Shown here: piece after piece, positions 15,791-32,786 of the stretch
Layout of the letters: each line of letters starts with the position of its first letter
How positions within the stretch are numbered: position 1 is the first letter of the stretch
Assembly (NCBI GenBank): GCA_023270015.1
Contig: JAGDXZ010000050.1
Coordinates: forward strand, 1-32,916
Reading direction: 5' to 3'
Source: Microcaldota archaeon
GTDB lineage: Archaea > Micrarchaeota > Micrarchaeia > Micrarchaeales > CABMGC01
DNA length: 32,916 nucleotides
Notes under the pieces: model-generated
Told to the model about the DNA's origin: nothing
The model's input: the letters and a program-made list of their open reading frames with translations, nothing else
The model's database searches: none
Position numbers and translations under genes: made by a program

Positions 15791-15928
15791 GAAAACAATT
15801 CCATGCTTTAGCAATATCAATCTTTCGATTTGCCTATACCCTATGCCCTGCTTGCTTTTGCTAACCTCTCAAAAAGTATTTATTTCTTAGCAGCGTCTTT
15901 ATATCAGGCGACTAGATAAGTGGATGTT

Positions 15929-17002
15929 ATGGCTGAAGGTTTCACCTCTCCCGATGACGAAGAATTGCTTAAATTCATAGAGGCTGCAAAGCCAAAGATA
16001 TACATTGTAGGCGCAGGCGGCAGCGGCTCCAACACGATCTCGCGAATGTTCGAGATGAACATAGAGGGCGCAACGCTCATAGCGGCAAACACCGACGCCC
16101 ACCATCTCGCCATAACCAAGGCGCACCGAAAGCTATTGCTTGGCAAAAAGACAACTAGGGGCTTGGGAGCAGGCAGTGATCCAAAGCTCGGAGAAGAAGC
16201 CGCATTAGAAAGCAAGGAAGAAATAAGGCACATGCTTAGCGACGCACAGCTTGTTTTTGTCACCTGCGGGCTCGGCGGCGGCACAGGCACAGGCTCAGCT
16301 CCTGTGATAGCGCACGAGGCAAAGGAAAACGGCGCGCTAACAGTCGGCATAGTCACCTTGCCTTTCTCCAGCGAAGGAAGGCTAAGAATGCACAACGCCC
16401 TGGAGGGCTTGGCAAAGCTAAAGCGCATGACCGATACCACAATAATAATACCAAACGACAAGCTTCTTGGCGTTGCGCCAGACCTTCCGCTTAACATGGC
16501 CTTCAAGGTAAGCGACGAAGTGCTTGCAAATGCAACAAAGGGAATAGTAGAGATGGTTACAAAACCCGGCATGGTCAACTTGGATTTTGCAGATTTGAGG
16601 AGCGTGCTTAAGGATTCAGGCTATGCAGTAATAGGCTTGGGAGAGAGCAATGGAGTGGAAACAAAAGATAGGGCATTAATAGCGGTAGAAAACACATTAA
16701 AGAGTCCGCTTCTGGATGTGGACCTTAGCACTGCGCAGAGGGCATTGGTAAACATAACCGGAGGGCCAGACCTTACTCTGAGGGAGGCTGAGAGCATATT
16801 CCAGGAAGTAGCAAGTAGAATAAGCAAGGATGCGCTGCTGAAGTGGGGAGCCAAGATAGAACCTCAGTTGCAGAAGAACACAGTCAAGGTAATGGTAGTT
16901 ATGGGTGGCGTTCAATATGCTGAGTACACTGAAGAGGGAATAAAGAAAAAGGCAGACGAAATGCTGCACGGAAGCACAGACTTAGATGATATTTTCGGCT
17001 AA
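15929..17002 (+). CDS. ftsZ: Cell division protein FtsZ (paralogue 1)
   Basis: Tubulin signature GLGGGTGTGSAPV, VGAGGSGSNTISRM, NLDFADLRSV, C-terminal DLDDIFG. Confidence 0.96.
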   Translation: MAEGFTSPDDEELLKFIEAAKPKIYIVGAGGSGSNTISRMFEMNIEGATLIAANTDAHHLAITKAHRKLLLGKKTTRGLGAGSDPKLGEEAALESKEEIRHMLSDAQLVFVTCGLGGGTGTGSAPVIAHEAKENGALTVGIVTLPFSSEGRLRMHNALEGLAKLKRMTDTTIIIPNDKLLGVAPDLPLNMAFKVSDEVLANATKGIVEMVTKPGMVNLDFADLRSVLKDSGYAVIGLGESNGVETKDRALIAVENTLKSPLLDVDLSTAQRALVNITGGPDLTLREAESIFQEVASRISKDALLKWGAKIEPQLQKNTVKVMVVMGGVQYAEYTEEGIKKKADEMLHGSTDLDDIFG

Positions 17003-17763: not shown

Positions 17764-17837
17764 GCCAGGATGGCAGATCGGCTATGCGGCCGCCTGCAGA
17801 GCGGCAAAGAGGGGTTCGACTCCCCTTCCTGGCTCCA
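17764..17837 (+). tRNA. tRNA-Cys (anticodon GCA), CCA encoded
   Basis: Acceptor GCCAGGA/TCCTGGC (7/7), anticodon stem GCCGC/GCGGC with loop CTGCAGA, T-arm AGGGG-TTCGACT-CCCCT, discriminator T, CCA. Confidence 0.95.
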
Positions 17838-17883
17838 CGTTTGCTTTATTAATCTTTAACGGCATTTTCTTTCTAGTGGTTTT

Positions 17884-20703
17884 ACGGACTTTGCGGGCAT
17901 AGAGAAAAAATGGCAGAAGAATTGGCAAGAAGCAAAGATATTTGAAGTAGAGCCAAACGACAAACCAGCTTACATGGTTTTCGCAGCATTTCCTTATGTA
18001 AACACACCTCTGCACATTGGTCACTTGCGAACATACAGCATTACTGACGCACTAGCAAGGTACAAGCGCATGCAAGGCTACAACGTCCTTTTTCCTATGG
18101 GATTCCATGCTACCGGAACACCTGTGCTTGCATTTGCAAAGCGCATAAAGAACAACGACCAAGAAATTATAAAGGAGCTCAAACTTTTCCATATCCCTGA
18201 TGAGGACATCGCAAAGATGACAGACCCTGTTTACATAACCGAATATTTCACCAAAAACAGCGAGGCAAGCTTTGCAAGGTCTGGTCTAAGCATAGACTTC
18301 AGGAGGAAATTTGTCTCCACAGAGCCTTTCTTCAGCAAGTTTGTAGAATGGCAGTTTGGGATACTCAACGACAAGCATCTTCTTGTTCAAGGCAAGCACG
18401 CAGTTGGCTGGTGCCCTAATGAAAACAATCCTGTTGGGATGCACGACACCCTGCATGATGTCGAGCCTGAGATTGAGGAGGAGGTTGCGATAGCGTTCAA
18501 GGTCGATGGCGAAGATGCGTATATGCTCTGTGCCACGTATAGGCCTGAGACCGTATTCGGCGTAACCAACATTTTTGTCAACAGAGACAGCCAGTATGTC
18601 CTTTGCAAAATTGGCGAAGATGAAAGAAGCTTCTACATCTCCAAAGAAGCAAGCTACATTTTGGGCTTTCAGCTAAAGATAAGCATATTGAAAGAACTTA
18701 GCGGACAGGAGCTCATAGAAAAGCAGTGCATAAACCCAATGAATGGAGTGAAGGTGCCAGTATACCACGGATTCTTTGTAAAGCCTGATTTGGGCACAGG
18801 AATAGTGATGAGCGTGCCAGCTCATGCGCCATTTGATTATGTCGCTTTGGAAAGGCTGAAAAAAGCGGGCATGCCCATTCCTTTGCCAATTCCGGTTCTT
18901 AAATTGGGCTCAGGCGGTAGCGTTGCTGAAAAAGAAGGCGAGCCGCTGGCAAAGGCATATCTTGATGCGCTCGGAATCGGCATAGATGCAAGCGAGGAGA
19001 AGATAGAAGAAGCAACAAAGCTCGAGTATAAGGAGGAGTCCAGATACGGAATAATGACAGTAGAGGGCTACGAGGGGATGCGAGAGCCAGAAGCCAGGGA
19101 GAAGATAAAAGAGAAGCTGCTTAACGACAAGAACGCATTGCCAATTTACATTCTTGCGAATGCACCGGTCTATTGCAGGTGCGGCGCAAAAATTGTTGTA
19201 AAGATTGTGGAAAATCAGTGGTTCCTAAACTATGGTGACGAGCAGTGGAAGCAGCAGGTAAGGGCACATCTGCCGAATATGACATTGGTGCCGGAAAAGA
19301 TAAGGTCGGCTTTTGAAAATACTGTAGAATGGCTTAATCTGCGTGCTGTTGCGCGTGCACAAGGGCTTGGCACGAGATTCCCTCTCGACAAAAACTACAT
19401 AATAGAATCGCTTTCCGATTCAACGATATACCCAGCGTTCTATACTATCTCTCACATAATAAGGGGGATAGAGCCAGAGAATCTCAAGCCATCTTTCTTT
19501 GACTATGTGTTCTTGGGTAAGGGCGATATAGAGCAGGTTGCGAAAGATACTGGCATAGACTACCAAATAATTAAAAGATGCAGAGAGTCTTTCGATTACT
19601 GGTATAGGCAAACGTCAAACCACTCCGGACTAGACCTGATACCGAACCACCTTACCATGTATATTTTCAACCATCTTGCAGTCTTTAACAAGGAATATTG
19701 GCCAAAGCAGATAGTGGTCAATGGCATGCTTCTTATGGAAGGAGAAAAGATGAGCAAAAGCCTTGGAAATATTGTGCCGCTAATAGACGGCGCCGAGACT
19801 TACGGCGTAGATCCCCTTAGGATAAACCTTATTGCTGGCGCTGACCTTTATAGCGATGCAGACTTTTCTGTAAAGGCAGTTAGAGGCATCCAGGAAAGGC
19901 TTGAGTATTTGTATGATACTGCGCTGAAGCTTGACTCGCTCCAAAGCGGTGGCCTTAAGCAAATAGACTATTGGCTTTATTCAAAGCTCAGCAGGAAGGT
20001 AGAGCAAGCAACAAAGGCGATGGATGCCTTTGAGTTTAGAGAAGCGTATCAGCGCATATTCTACGACAGTGTGATAGAATTGAAGCGATACTTCGCAAGA
20101 GGCGGCAACAACGCAATTGTTGTAAAGGACTTTATCTCCGACATAGCGCTGATGCTTCAACCTATAGCTCCGCACTTTGCCGAGGAACTTTGGCACCAGC
20201 TTGGCAATAACACCTTTGTATCTCTTGAAAAGTGGCCTCAAGCTAGAAAAGACTTGGTAAGCGAAAAAATCGAGACGCTTGAAGAAGAGATAGACTCAGT
20301 TATAGAGGATGCAAAAGAAGTCTCTAACCTTATGACGAGGAAATCAGGTAAGAGGGTGAAGAGGATAAGGGTAATAGTTGCAGACCAGTGGAAAAGAGAT
20401 CTTTACAACAAGTACGTTGAATCAAAGGACATTGCTAGAGCTCTAGAGGGTTTTGAAGGCAAGGTAAACAAAGATGTTGCCGCAAAATATCTTGCTCAGT
20501 TTGTGAAGCCGGGCATAGAGCTTAAGCCTATTGAGATTTCATCCAGCGAGGAATACCAAGCATTTAGCACTGCTATCGAGTATATGCAAAGTATGCTAGG
20601 ATGCGATGTCAGTATAGAGGAGGAAGCAAAATCAAATTCAACAAGGGCTTCTAGAGCCTCGCCGCTAAAGCCTAGCTTGGATGTAGAACTAGAACTTGCC
20701 TAG
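17884..20703 (+). CDS. leuS: Leucyl-tRNA synthetase, apparently initiated at ACG (17884)
   Basis: HIGH motif (PLHIGHLRTY), KMSKS (EKMSKSLGN). Frame upstream of the first ATG (17974) encodes a class-I aaRS-like N-terminus (T/M)DFAGIEKKWQKNWQEAKIFEVEPNDKPAYM with no ATG/GTG/TTG before the stop. Confidence 0.9.
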   Translation, partial: TDFAGIEKKWQKNWQEAKIFEVEPNDKPAYMVFAAFPYVNTPLHIGHLRTYSITDALARYKRMQGYNVLFPMGFHATGTPVLAFAKRIKNNDQEIIKELKLFHIPDEDIAKMTDPVYITEYFTKNSEASFARSGLSIDFRRKFVSTEPFFSKFVEWQFGILNDKHLLVQGKHAVGWCPNENNPVGMHDTLHDVEPEIEEEVAIAFKVDGEDAYMLCATYRPETVFGVTNIFVNRDSQYVLCKIGEDERSFYISKEASYILGFQLKISILKELSGQELIEKQCINPMNGVKVPVYHGFFVKPDLGTGIVMSVPAHAPFDYVALERLKKAGMPIPLPIPVLKLGSGGSVAEKEGEPLAKAYLDALGIGIDASEEKIEEATKLEYKEESRYGIMTVEGYEGMREPEAREKIKEKLLNDKNALPIYILANAPVYCRCGAKIVVKIVENQWFLNYGDEQWKQQVRAHLPNMTLVPEKIRSAFENTVEWLNLRAVARAQGLGTRFPLDKNYIIESLSDSTIYPAFYTISHIIRGIEPENLKPSFFDYVFLGKGDIEQVAKDTGIDYQIIKRCRESFDYWYRQTSNHSGLDLIPNHLTMYIFNHLAVFNKEYWPKQIVVNGMLLMEGEKMSKSLGNIVPLIDGAETYGVDPLRINLIAGADLYSDADFSVKAVRGIQERLEYLYDTALKLDSLQSGGLKQIDYWLYSKLSRKVEQATKAMDAFEFREAYQRIFYDSVIELKRYFARGGNNAIVVKDFISDIALMLQPIAPHFAEELWHQLGNNTFVSLEKWPQARKDLVSEKIETLEEEIDSVIEDAKEVSNLMTRKSGKRVKRIRVIVADQWKRDLYNKYVESKDIARALEGFEGKVNKDVAAKYLAQFVKPGIELKPIEISSSEEYQAFSTAIEYMQSMLGCDVSIEEEAKSNSTRASRASPLKPSLDVELELA

Positions 20704-21741
20704 TTAGAGCATGCCTAAGCCAAATTCTGTGTGCTCTTCTTTTTTGCCTAGCACAGAAGCTCCAGACACGCCAGTAAAGATCGCAATAACTTCTACTCTA
20801 TTTTCATAAGTAGGATCCAATCTGGCTCCCCAAGTGACGTTGGCATTCGGCGCTATATGCTCAGTAAGCCTCGTACCTATTTCATTTGCTTCACCAAGGG
20901 TTAAGTCAGGTCCGCCTATTATGTGGATTAGCACGCCAGTAGCTTTTGAATAATCCACGTCAAGGAGCTTGTTCTTAAGTGTACTTTCCACAACGTCACT
21001 TACCTTGTTAGTTCCCTGCCCTGTTCCTACGCTTATCATTGCAAGCCCGCCGGCCGACATTATGTTTCTGACATCTGCAAAATCTAGGTTTATCAGGCTT
21101 GGTTGCGTTATGGTTTCAGTTATGCCTCTAACTGCCTTCGCAGTTATCTCGTCGGCTAGCGCAAACGCCTTTTCTATAGGCAGGTTTGGATAAAGGTCTA
21201 CCAGTCTTTGGTTATCTATAACGACAAGCGTGTCAACGTTCTGCCTAAGCTTCTCTATTCCTTTCTTCGCGGTTTCAAGCCTTACACGTTCGAGAGAGAA
21301 AGGCATGGTCACTATGCCTATTACTATTGCACCCTGCTCTTTTGCTACTCTAGAGACTATCGGTGCGGCGCCTGTGCCTGTGCCGCCGCCCATGCCTGCA
21401 GTGAGAAAAACAAGGTTGGTATCCTTGAGCAGCAATGCGATCTCGCCCCTGCTGAGCTCAGCTGCCTTTTCACCTATCTCCGGGAATCCTCCAGCGCCAA
21501 GGCCGTGTGTAAGCTCTTTGCCAAGTATAAGTTTTGTAATGTTGTTATTGAGCATTCCAAGGTGCTTTGCATCAGTATTGAAGGCGAAGAGGCTTGCACC
21601 TTTTATATCCATTTGGCTAAGTCTTTGCACCGCGTTGTTGCCGCCTCCGCCTACTCCAACAACAGCTATTTTTGGTTTGAAAAGTTCCTCTTCATTTATC
21701 AGCTGCGTTGCTTGTTCTTGAGGGTCGCCAAATCCATACAT
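20704..21741 (-). CDS. ftsZ2: Cell division protein FtsZ (paralogue 2)
   Basis: GMGGGTGTGAAPIV, VVGVGGGGNNAVQRL, INLDFADVRNIM. Confidence 0.96.
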   Translation of the reverse strand: MYGFGDPQEQATQLINEEELFKPKIAVVGVGGGGNNAVQRLSQMDIKGASLFAFNTDAKHLGMLNNNITKLILGKELTHGLGAGGFPEIGEKAAELSRGEIALLLKDTNLVFLTAGMGGGTGTGAAPIVSRVAKEQGAIVIGIVTMPFSLERVRLETAKKGIEKLRQNVDTLVVIDNQRLVDLYPNLPIEKAFALADEITAKAVRGITETITQPSLINLDFADVRNIMSAGGLAMISVGTGQGTNKVSDVVESTLKNKLLDVDYSKATGVLIHIIGGPDLTLGEANEIGTRLTEHIAPNANVTWGARLDPTYENRVEVIAIFTGVSGASVLGKKEEHTEFGLGML

Positions 21742-25339: not shown

Positions 25340-25813
25340 ATGCTTAACGAGGCCTCACTCATAGAAAACGAGCTAACGCTAAGGAAGCTGAGGATAGACA
25401 GCACAACCACCGAGACAAGAAGGGCCATTGCAAGGTGGCTCGCGCTTGCATTGGGGCTTGTCAATCCCGGCGAGTCTAGGCAGAGCGCCGTGGAGGTGCT
25501 AGACAGCCTTCTCTATTTCCAGTTCGTAAAGCAGCAAGACCCTGATGTTGAAATGATAAAACAATACATAGCAACAAATTGGGAACCTATAAATGAGAAG
25601 ACGCTGCGATACCACCTTCTTCGAATGAAAAGAATGGGTCTTATTGATAATTCGCAAGGCAAGTTTTACTTTAAGCCTCCTGCAAGCGGAGACAGGTTTA
25701 ATGCCAACGTAGTTTTTTCCAGCATATTCGAACAGAATTTAAAGGAAATCGTTGAAAGAATAGGGAAGGTCATAGAGGAGTTTAGAAACAAGAGCAAGAT
25801 CATGGGTGAGTAG
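25340..25813 (+). CDS. HTH transcriptional regulator-like protein
   Basis: EKTLRYHLLRMKRMGLIDNSQGKFYF winged-HTH-like segment; TATA-like TTATATTTTT ~20 nt before the ATG at 25340. Confidence 0.6.
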   Translation: MLNEASLIENELTLRKLRIDSTTTETRRAIARWLALALGLVNPGESRQSAVEVLDSLLYFQFVKQQDPDVEMIKQYIATNWEPINEKTLRYHLLRMKRMGLIDNSQGKFYFKPPASGDRFNANVVFSSIFEQNLKEIVERIGKVIEEFRNKSKIMGE

Positions 25814-27427
25814 ACGAAGCGTGAGGTTTACTTCTGGATACTGCTTGTAGTGGCAATATTGGGCGCTGCCCTTTATCTGAGGCTTTTCTATCAGCCGGCA
25901 GTGAGTATAGTCCTTACCTCACCTACAAACATTAGCCTCTATCCGTATCAGCTAGCAGAGATTCCGATAAAGGTTTTAAACAACGGCGGAACACCGATAA
26001 GGAATATGAGTATTGGGGTATATGTCAATTCTACCCTCAACACATTATACAAAGTTACTCTTCCTCCAGGGAAGTTTGTGTTTCTCAATTTTACCTATGT
26101 ACCGTCTTTCAACTCTACTTTCGAAATAACAGCAGTTGCAGACCCTGGAAGGCTTTATGACATAATCGACAGGCCTCTTGCAAGGTCTACAACTTATCTT
26201 CACGTTGCTAAGGCCGAAGAGCCAAGCGCGTATGCGATGCTTCCTGCAGGCAACATAGTAGCAGAGAAGATCGAGCATTTAAATGCCGGCGGCTATGCGC
26301 TAGCAAGTTATCTTAATGCAACATACGGCCTTACAAGGATAAAGCTTACTAATGTGTCTTATTTCAACAATTTTCTAGACTCTATTTTGCAGTATGTGCT
26401 CACAAATGTTAGGCAGCTTGCTGCTGCCGATGCAACCTATGCTAATGGTACTTCCGCTTCCGCGGTTTGGATTATGGGTTTCTTATCCCCAAATCTCACA
26501 AACACAGCAGCGCTCATAAACGGGCTCAAGGCTGAGAATATAAGCGTAGCCGGAAAGCAAGTTACTGTAGTTTACTTTCCAAACGACACGACCCTCTGTA
26601 GTTACTATTCGCAAGGTTGGCTTAAGATGCTGTTGGCAAGGCCAGGCAATTGCACAAGCATGTTGTCTGCAAAGCGCGCGAGCTCTGTTCTGCTATCAAG
26701 CTTCTATTCCAACACTGCAATAGCTAATGCAATTAACCTTGGCAATTATTCACTAGTAACTCCAGAAGGCGAAAAGGCAGGGGCTTTTGCGCTTCTAGAT
26801 AATGCGTCTTTTCTCTACTCAACCATATCTTCAAATTCCTTGGCTTATGAAGAGCCCGTTTGTTACGGCCTTATAACAAACACCTCAAATGTTAGCTACT
26901 GCTCGCAATACCTATTTCCAAAGAACAACACCTTTGTAGGAACAAACGCTCTTATGAGGACTACTGCATACATAGGCAATTACAACCTTTCAGTATTTTC
27001 TCTACTTAGCTCCTCTTACCTGCTACAGCAAGTGCCGATAAACATAGGTATAATAAGGGGCTTTGAAATAGAAGGAAAGCCTTTGATGTTTAGCTCAGGT
27101 ATAACAAACATGTGCTCATTCAACAATACCTTCTCATGCTCGAACGTAAGCTTCCTCAACGGGAACCTTTATTTCAGCCTTAAGAATCTAAACTCTACCT
27201 TGCATATTCTTAACGCATCCTGCTATTTGCTTCCGCCTTACAAACCCAAGCCTGTAAATGTGACATTGGCAAAAGGCCAGGTTGTGAACATGAGCATTCC
27301 TTGCTACGACCTTGGCAAAAGCATTACCGGCCTTGCGCTCAATCTCAGGCTTTTTGTAGGCATAGGCTATTCAATAAATTCAACAAACCACGAGATAATA
27401 GGGAGAGCTTACATTCCGATAGGCTGA
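25814..27427 (+). CDS. Membrane-anchored, sequon-rich extracellular protein, apparently initiated at ACG (25814)
   Basis: Frame from the TAG at 25811 reads (T/M)KREVYFWILLVVAILGAALYLRLFYQPAV, a complete N-terminal signal anchor; about 25 N-x-S/T sequons; first canonical start (GTG 25850) lies inside the TM helix. Confidence 0.7.
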   Translation, partial: TKREVYFWILLVVAILGAALYLRLFYQPAVSIVLTSPTNISLYPYQLAEIPIKVLNNGGTPIRNMSIGVYVNSTLNTLYKVTLPPGKFVFLNFTYVPSFNSTFEITAVADPGRLYDIIDRPLARSTTYLHVAKAEEPSAYAMLPAGNIVAEKIEHLNAGGYALASYLNATYGLTRIKLTNVSYFNNFLDSILQYVLTNVRQLAAADATYANGTSASAVWIMGFLSPNLTNTAALINGLKAENISVAGKQVTVVYFPNDTTLCSYYSQGWLKMLLARPGNCTSMLSAKRASSVLLSSFYSNTAIANAINLGNYSLVTPEGEKAGAFALLDNASFLYSTISSNSLAYEEPVCYGLITNTSNVSYCSQYLFPKNNTFVGTNALMRTTAYIGNYNLSVFSLLSSSYLLQQVPINIGIIRGFEIEGKPLMFSSGITNMCSFNNTFSCSNVSFLNGNLYFSLKNLNSTLHILNASCYLLPPYKPKPVNVTLAKGQVVNMSIPCYDLGKSITGLALNLRLFVGIGYSINSTNHEIIGRAYIPIG

Positions 27428-31385: not shown

Positions 31386-31448
31386 AATTTAAGCATAAAA
31401 TTAAAATGCTTAGCATATTGCTAGGCGATTTCTGAGTTAGGTGGTTTT

Positions 31449-32117: not shown

Positions 32118-32786
32118 CTAATAGAAGCTGAGCTGTTTTAGGCGTGTGTCTTTGTTTCTAGAAAGGTTATCTGCCTTTCTTAGCGTAGACTCGATTTCTT
32201 CTTTTATTTCGCTGTTGAATTTTCCTTCTTGCGACACCATATAGTAGGATTTTCTTTTTAACTCTTTTAGATCTTTAGAATTAAGGTTGTAATAATTCAG
32301 AAATACACTGACGGAGTTGATAGGCTTTCCATCATAGAGGCGCACAACCTCGTGGTTCTGAATTATTTGAGCATTCCTGTCTGTTAATATTATTGCATAA
32401 GCTATCGCTTGCTTAAGGTCTTCGCTATGATCTCTCGATTTGTCCTCAATTACTGTTATTTCCACCCCGCCATTTTTGTGTTTTACCACTACAGCATCAG
32501 GCGTGCCTCTTAGCCCATATGTCGGGCTGCATATAAATGCCGAAAATATGATGTCTTTGCCAGAGCGTATGCTTTCAGTTATTCCTTGCGGAGAAATTTC
32601 TTTCGGAGATGTTTTCAAATTGCGCATGTTAGCCAATCTTTCATGATCTATAATGCCTAATATTGGGTGTATGTAGTTTGGTATGTGATTTCCTTCATTT
32701 GCGCCAATCTGTGCAAGACTGCCTGCCCCTACACAAACTTTTTTAAATCCGCAGTTTTCGCAGATTCCGTTGAATGGCTCCCCCGT
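32118..32786 (-). CDS. Cas4/RecB-like PD-(D/E)XK nuclease with N-terminal Cys cluster, apparently initiated at ACG (32786)
   Basis: GLRGTPDAVVV...VEITVIEDKSRDHSEDLKQAIAYAIIL (D, E-x-K, Q-x3-Y motifs). Upstream extension on the minus strand reads GEPFNGICENCGFKKVCVGAGSLAQIGANEGNHIPNYIHPILGIIDHERLANMRN; no ATG/GTG/TTG until TTG 32636. Confidence 0.7.
   Translation of the reverse strand, partial: TGEPFNGICENCGFKKVCVGAGSLAQIGANEGNHIPNYIHPILGIIDHERLANMRNLKTSPKEISPQGITESIRSGKDIIFSAFICSPTYGLRGTPDAVVVKHKNGGVEITVIEDKSRDHSEDLKQAIAYAIILTDRNAQIIQNHEVVRLYDGKPINSVSVFLNYYNLNSKDLKELKRKSYYMVSQEGKFNSEIKEEIESTLRKADNLSRNKDTRLKQLSFY

Follow-up and report, generated by a model that had tools for sequence, protein, structure and literature searches.

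The essential leucyl-tRNA synthetase (LeuRS) gene of this micrarchaeal MAG is in all probability initiated at an ACG codon, which lies at position 17884 of the window (the whole stretch of 32,916 nucleotides that was analysed), and it represents one case of near-cognate starts behind a Shine-Dalgarno (SD) sequence that recur throughout the lineage. We put the probability of this reading at roughly 0.86; no transcript, ribosome or peptide data are available, and initiation itself is inferred from the anatomy, spacing, conservation and recurrence of the site, all of which were observed directly. A start at this ACG had been proposed in a first-pass annotation of the window and is supported here by its location on the methionine site, by the spacing of the SD sequence and by the recurrence of such starts in other genes and independent assemblies. 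The locus contains the following features:

17764-17837, + strand: tRNA-Cys (GCA) with encoded CCA, found by ARAGORN, ending 46 nt upstream of LeuRS
17857-17859, + strand: in-frame stop codon TAA, which bounds the LeuRS frame upstream (sequence, translation)
17876-17881, + strand: SD sequence GTGGTT with its GTG core at 17876-17878, assigned by position and by the same spacing as in relatives
17884-17886, + strand: ACG, predicted to start LeuRS, 5 nt downstream of the GTG core
17884-20703, + strand: leucyl-tRNA synthetase of 939 aa with intact HIGH and KMSKS motifs (Pfam PF00133, PF09334, PF08264 and PF13603; alignment)
17974-17976, + strand: first in-frame ATG, read as an internal methionine, without an SD sequence ahead (sequence, ORF list)

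The LeuRS frame (17860-20703, + strand) contains no ATG, GTG or TTG before the ATG at 17974, where the ORF list places the start of the gene; both sequence and translation thereby agree with the earlier statement that a canonical start is missing between the TAA and this ATG. Translated from the TAA onwards, the frame reads RHFLSSGF, then the T of the ACG at 17884, then DFAGIEKKWQKNWQ, so that DFAGIEKKWQ follows the T directly. The AGTGG-TTTT ahead of the ACG is present as had been described, and the AGGTGG-TTTT-TTG to which it had been likened has a single occurrence in the window, at 31439, ahead of a PDO-like protein with a thioredoxin fold. The ACG has the sequence features of a near-cognate start, being one base away from AUG and lying behind an SD sequence at the spacing typical of the lineage, with no ATG, GTG or TTG separating the upstream stop from the conserved N-terminus. 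The protein fulfils the criteria for an archaeal LeuRS, namely a class I synthetase core with HIGH and KMSKS together with editing and anticodon-binding domains (Pfam, alignment). The gene is flanked by FtsZ-family genes on both sides, one upstream (15920-17002, + strand) and one directly downstream in convergent orientation (20704-21741, - strand; Pfam Tubulin and FtsZ_C).

To compare N-termini, 88 distinct LeuRS sequences from the order were aligned, and the block D/N-Y/F-x-x-I/L-E-x-K-W-Q-x-x-W was found at the LeuRS start. Such an alignment with relatives had been named in the first-pass annotation as a way to check the start, and it places the ACG on the conserved methionine site, which comprises the codon aligned with the ACG and its immediate upstream neighbour (M-I-D-Y or M-D-Y), at -1 or -2 from the D/N-Y/F motif. 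This site carries a canonical codon in 81 of the 88 sequences (ATG in 68, TTG in 7 and GTG in 6), and two further sequences have an ATG one codon more upstream. The remaining five are the ACG of the window, which was found in LeuRS of this MAG only, an ATT (G005, with an in-frame ATG six codons upstream), an ATA (G004) and two CTG (G020 and G086). Each of these five has its near-cognate codon exactly 5 nt from the end of the GTG core; the same distance is the commonest in canonical LeuRS genes, being found in 20 of the 44 with a core. The earlier claim that the ACG sits where methionine is expected is in this way confirmed.

Translation could instead begin at the ATG at 17974 and yield a shorter functional enzyme, or the ACG copy could be decaying, as the bin contains a second LeuRS; the ATG is, after all, a canonical codon. 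However, no GTG core precedes this ATG, and the roughly 30 residues which would be lost, as was pointed out before, include W10, Q11 and W14, all invariant in a 14-member LeuRS alignment. Across the 88 sequences, in-frame identity is about 0.06 upstream of the start site and many columns reach 0.5–1.0 beyond the ACG, and in-frame stops are confined to the region upstream. When codons 2–30 are compared with those of the second LeuRS, which is located on contig C42 (L039) of the MAG (G000, Candidatus Micrarchaeota, 789 kb) and is 72% identical, 7, 4 and 13 differences are found at codon positions 1, 2 and 3. Because these fall mostly at third positions, residues 2–30 show the pattern of a coding sequence maintained by purifying selection, and the 30 residues before the ATG are, judging by these alignments, real coding sequence. 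Decay is contradicted by the intact frame with HIGH and KMSKS. A duplication of the LeuRS gene was considered and rejected, since C42 looks like the parallel contig of a second related species, and nearly all of the 142 genomes of the order with a match have a single LeuRS. A start at the ATG cannot be excluded formally, yet we give it, and a decaying copy, very little credence compared with a start at the ACG. As a separate observation, a single in-frame TGA or TAG is found within the matched LeuRS stretch of L010 (G002), L014 (G015) and L032 (G029), which may be a natural end or a break.

The 16S rRNA was not found in the MAG itself, and its tail was taken from the relative G028, whose 3' region reads ...GATAGATCACCTC and includes the SD complement; GGTGAT is therefore the expected SD sequence. 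GTGGTT at 17876-17881 lies in the same register as GGTGAT and pairs with the G028 tail ...GATCACCTC if two G-U pairs are included. This bears on the alternative, raised in the first-pass annotation, that one base was lost from the TTTT run and that the true start is the GTG at 17876 (GTG GTT TTT ACG GAC). One extra T would indeed bring this GTG into frame, and homopolymers are error-prone. The same GTG is, however, the SD core, which the co-binned orthologue (gtggtTTAATG) and further orthologues (gtggtTTTGTG, gtggtGTCTTG) have in the corresponding position, and the starts of relatives lie at codon -1 or -2 and never require -4, i.e. four codons before the D. A lost base is accordingly disfavoured and in our view most improbable, and the GTG is better read as part of the signal that precedes the ACG.

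Near-cognate starts are not restricted to LeuRS within the window. The first-pass annotation had not pointed out the ACG-started gene at 25814, nor the tRNA-Cys gene and the second LeuRS of the MAG. Three further features are relevant:

25804-25813, + strand: SD sequence GGGTGAGTAG, overlapping the 3' end of the preceding gene (stop codon TAG at 25811-25813)
25814-27427, + strand: second gene with a predicted ACG start, 537 aa, possibly a CARDB-type protein (below the cut-off), with a homologue on G000:C32
32118-32786, - strand: frame with a possible third ACG start, GGTGG-CTTT-ACG at 32786, the next canonical codon following 50 codons on

In the second gene the ACG follows immediately after the TAG of the upstream gene and lies behind GGTG (GGTGAGTAG-ACG), and the homologue on the other contig of the bin has an ATG at exactly this codon (TKREVYFWIL versus MKNEIYFWIL). 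The third frame has no canonical start within its first 64 codons and offers the ACG behind GGTGGCTTT as a candidate; neither a homologue nor a Pfam match was found for its protein, and the start remains possible but unproven, the anatomy being right.

An unbiased count covered 296 long frames of the sampled MAG that do not overlap one another. Codons behind GGTG-N5/6 and no more than 30 codons from the start of the frame were compared with those at internal positions. ACG was found 5 times versus 0.21 expected (Poisson P about 3e-6), and the canonical codons were enriched as well (ATG 16 versus 1.1, TTG 8 versus 1.7 and GTG 4 versus 1.2 expected), whereas the 51 other codons showed no enrichment at these positions (26 versus 42 expected). 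Two of the five ACG cases are orthologues on C42 and C20 (L147). They encode winged-helix-like proteins that are 60% identical (L039 1604-2434 and L147 224-1057, both + strand) and show, in both co-binned species, an ACG behind GGTG and at least 19 codons without a canonical one. The SD-linked excess of ACG is weak in G028 (5 versus 2.5 expected).

Genes were also compared between 366 kb of the MAG and 480 kb of G028. Many frames that had first been flagged were dropped as antisense or shadow frames. In the MAG, RNase HI (GGTGATCAA-ATA) and RNase HII (GGTGTTAGC-ATC) have no canonical start. In G028, eL14 has an ACG and an ABC ATPase a CTG, both of them following GGTG and lined up with the ATG of the homologue in the MAG. 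DNA polymerase DP2 of G028 has an ACG directly behind a stop codon and GGTG, and an ATG lies eight codons downstream; DP2 probably starts at this ACG. The aIF2-alpha gene of G028 shows an ACG directly after a stop (GGTGGGCTGA-ACG), as does that of the separate assembly G069, the two proteins being 88% identical, and that of G015 shows a CTG. One further candidate in G070 (L238) is unexplained.

The most extensive case is RNase HII, for which 69 of the 83 distinct genes of the order carry a non-canonical codon at the methionine position (ATA 25, ATT 20, ATC 20, GTT 2, GTC 1 and ACG 1, the last in G128). In 45 of these 69 there is no ATG, GTG or TTG in frame before the DEAGRG motif. GGTG lies 4–7 nt upstream in 65 of the 69 non-canonical but only 4 of the 14 canonical genes (Fisher P = 3e-7); some genes with a spacing of 6 nt contain an in-frame GTG inside the SD sequence, which is a possible start. 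In the same class, RNase HII of family f11 likewise carries ATA (G183, G187 and G194), whereas ATG is found in most of the remaining families. With ATA, ATC or ATT in 65 of the 83 genes, an AUH codon has apparently become the norm for RNase HII across the order, and its predicted non-canonical start is a lineage-specific trait present in many independent assemblies. Our inference is that such conserved weak starts may hold expression at a low or regulated level, in the manner of infC. In genus g24 (L280, L281 and L284), a GTT or GTC at the methionine position, two changes from AUG, is followed by ATA, and either could be the start.

It might still be argued that the ACG is an assembly or consensus error, for example through strain mixing, and that the genome really has an ATG (or GTG) at 17884. 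Base 17885 does rest on one MAG assembly, with 5% contamination, which seems to mix two related species: homologues of the C42 genes, 50–76% identical and in similar order, are found on other contigs of the bin, those of the window genes likewise on C32 (L221), and the contigs concerned (C42, C32, C20 and C30 (L219), besides the window) carry homologues that are 50–84% identical. An error of this kind would, however, neither cluster at start codons nor correlate with SD strength, and near-cognate starts with the correct SD spacing are seen in several genes of the MAG, two of them in the window, and across many independent assemblies. We consider an error unlikely, and mainly because the trait recurs in independent assemblies rather than because of any property of the base at 17885. 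C-to-U editing of the mRNA, which would convert ACG to AUG, also has to be weighed, as ACG is the classic edited start in plant chloroplasts (PMC9845219). Editing would require all non-canonical starts to be convertible in this manner, which is not the case, since AUA, AUC, AUU and CUG, for which it gives no account, predominate in the same lineage; we regard it as scarcely credible. The near-cognate start is a trait of the lineage and not an oddity of LeuRS, a conclusion that goes beyond the first-pass annotation.

A more general suggestion would be that start selection is relaxed genome-wide in the order, with a strong GGTG at 5–6 nt fixing the start, any near-cognate codon being accepted, ACG serving as a routine fourth start codon and AUH as the standard for RNase HII. 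We rate the chances of this as about even. If it is true, gene starts throughout the group are systematically misannotated. Gene finders limited to ATG, GTG and TTG shorten or shift such proteins, costing LeuRS 30 residues and RNase HII its DEAGRG motif, and therefore leave wrong N-termini in the databases for this group.

Mechanistically, GTGGTT would bring the ACG, five nucleotides further on, into the P site, where the Met-initiator tRNA (anticodon CAU) would be accepted despite the mismatched middle base pair; that the first residue is methionine and that the initiation machinery tolerates the codon are likewise inferred. Lineage-wide, a strong SD sequence at fixed spacing would define the start, and ACG, CTG, AUA, AUC and AUU would be used by a small minority of genes, some of them essential. 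No report of near-cognate starts in Micrarchaeota was found in open-access PMC text. The closest analogy is infC (IF3) of E. coli, an essential gene with a conserved AUU start behind an SD sequence, which is autoregulatory as far as the entries among the references of PMC9845219 indicate. However, infC is one regulated bacterial gene, whereas several unrelated genes are affected here, ACG and CTG are also used, and archaea have aIF1/aIF2 in place of IF3/IF2. Plastids with ACG, GUG and AUU starts and eukaryotes with near-cognate ones are on record as well (PMC9845219), and they illustrate that ACG can initiate in a strong context, as proposed for the micrarchaeon; plastid ACG is, however, often edited to AUG and eukaryotes scan without an SD sequence, whereas the micrarchaeal position is set by GGTG at 5–6 nt. 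With the SD-led start selection by aIF1/aIF1A/aIF2 in P. abyssi (PMC6237735), the lineage shares a GGUG-type SD sequence, a CAU Met-tRNAi and aIF1. The aIF1 of Sulfolobus reportedly selects against non-canonical starts, to the extent that the citing statements in PMC6237735 and PMC8211752 reveal, whereas the micrarchaeal lineage uses such starts repeatedly. If confirmed, this would be a natural archaeal system that tolerates near-cognate initiation at essential genes despite genes for aIF1 and KsgA/Dim1 and a CAU initiator, and the basis of archaeal start-codon fidelity would become directly testable.

The absence of KsgA/Dim1 favours non-AUG starts (PMC7897474). A simple loss of this protein was rejected as the cause, all 117 genomes sampled from the phylum having a PF00398 match (above the cut-off in 115), as was a loss of aIF1, with SUI1 in 70 of 79 genomes of the family including this MAG. 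A changed initiator anticodon was rejected too, as an initiator-like tRNA with GGGCTCATAACCC and anticodon CAU is located near most aIF2-alpha genes, in detail about 1 kb upstream in 24 of 30 loci (L233-L262) and in G028 (L155 13080-13172, - strand). As all three are present, the loss of one of them is not the cause. The T-arm of the G028 initiator-like tRNA is interrupted (GGTGGTCCAAAAAGAAATTCTTGGAAATCCACC), probably by an intron, and the gene was missed by both ARAGORN and Rfam.
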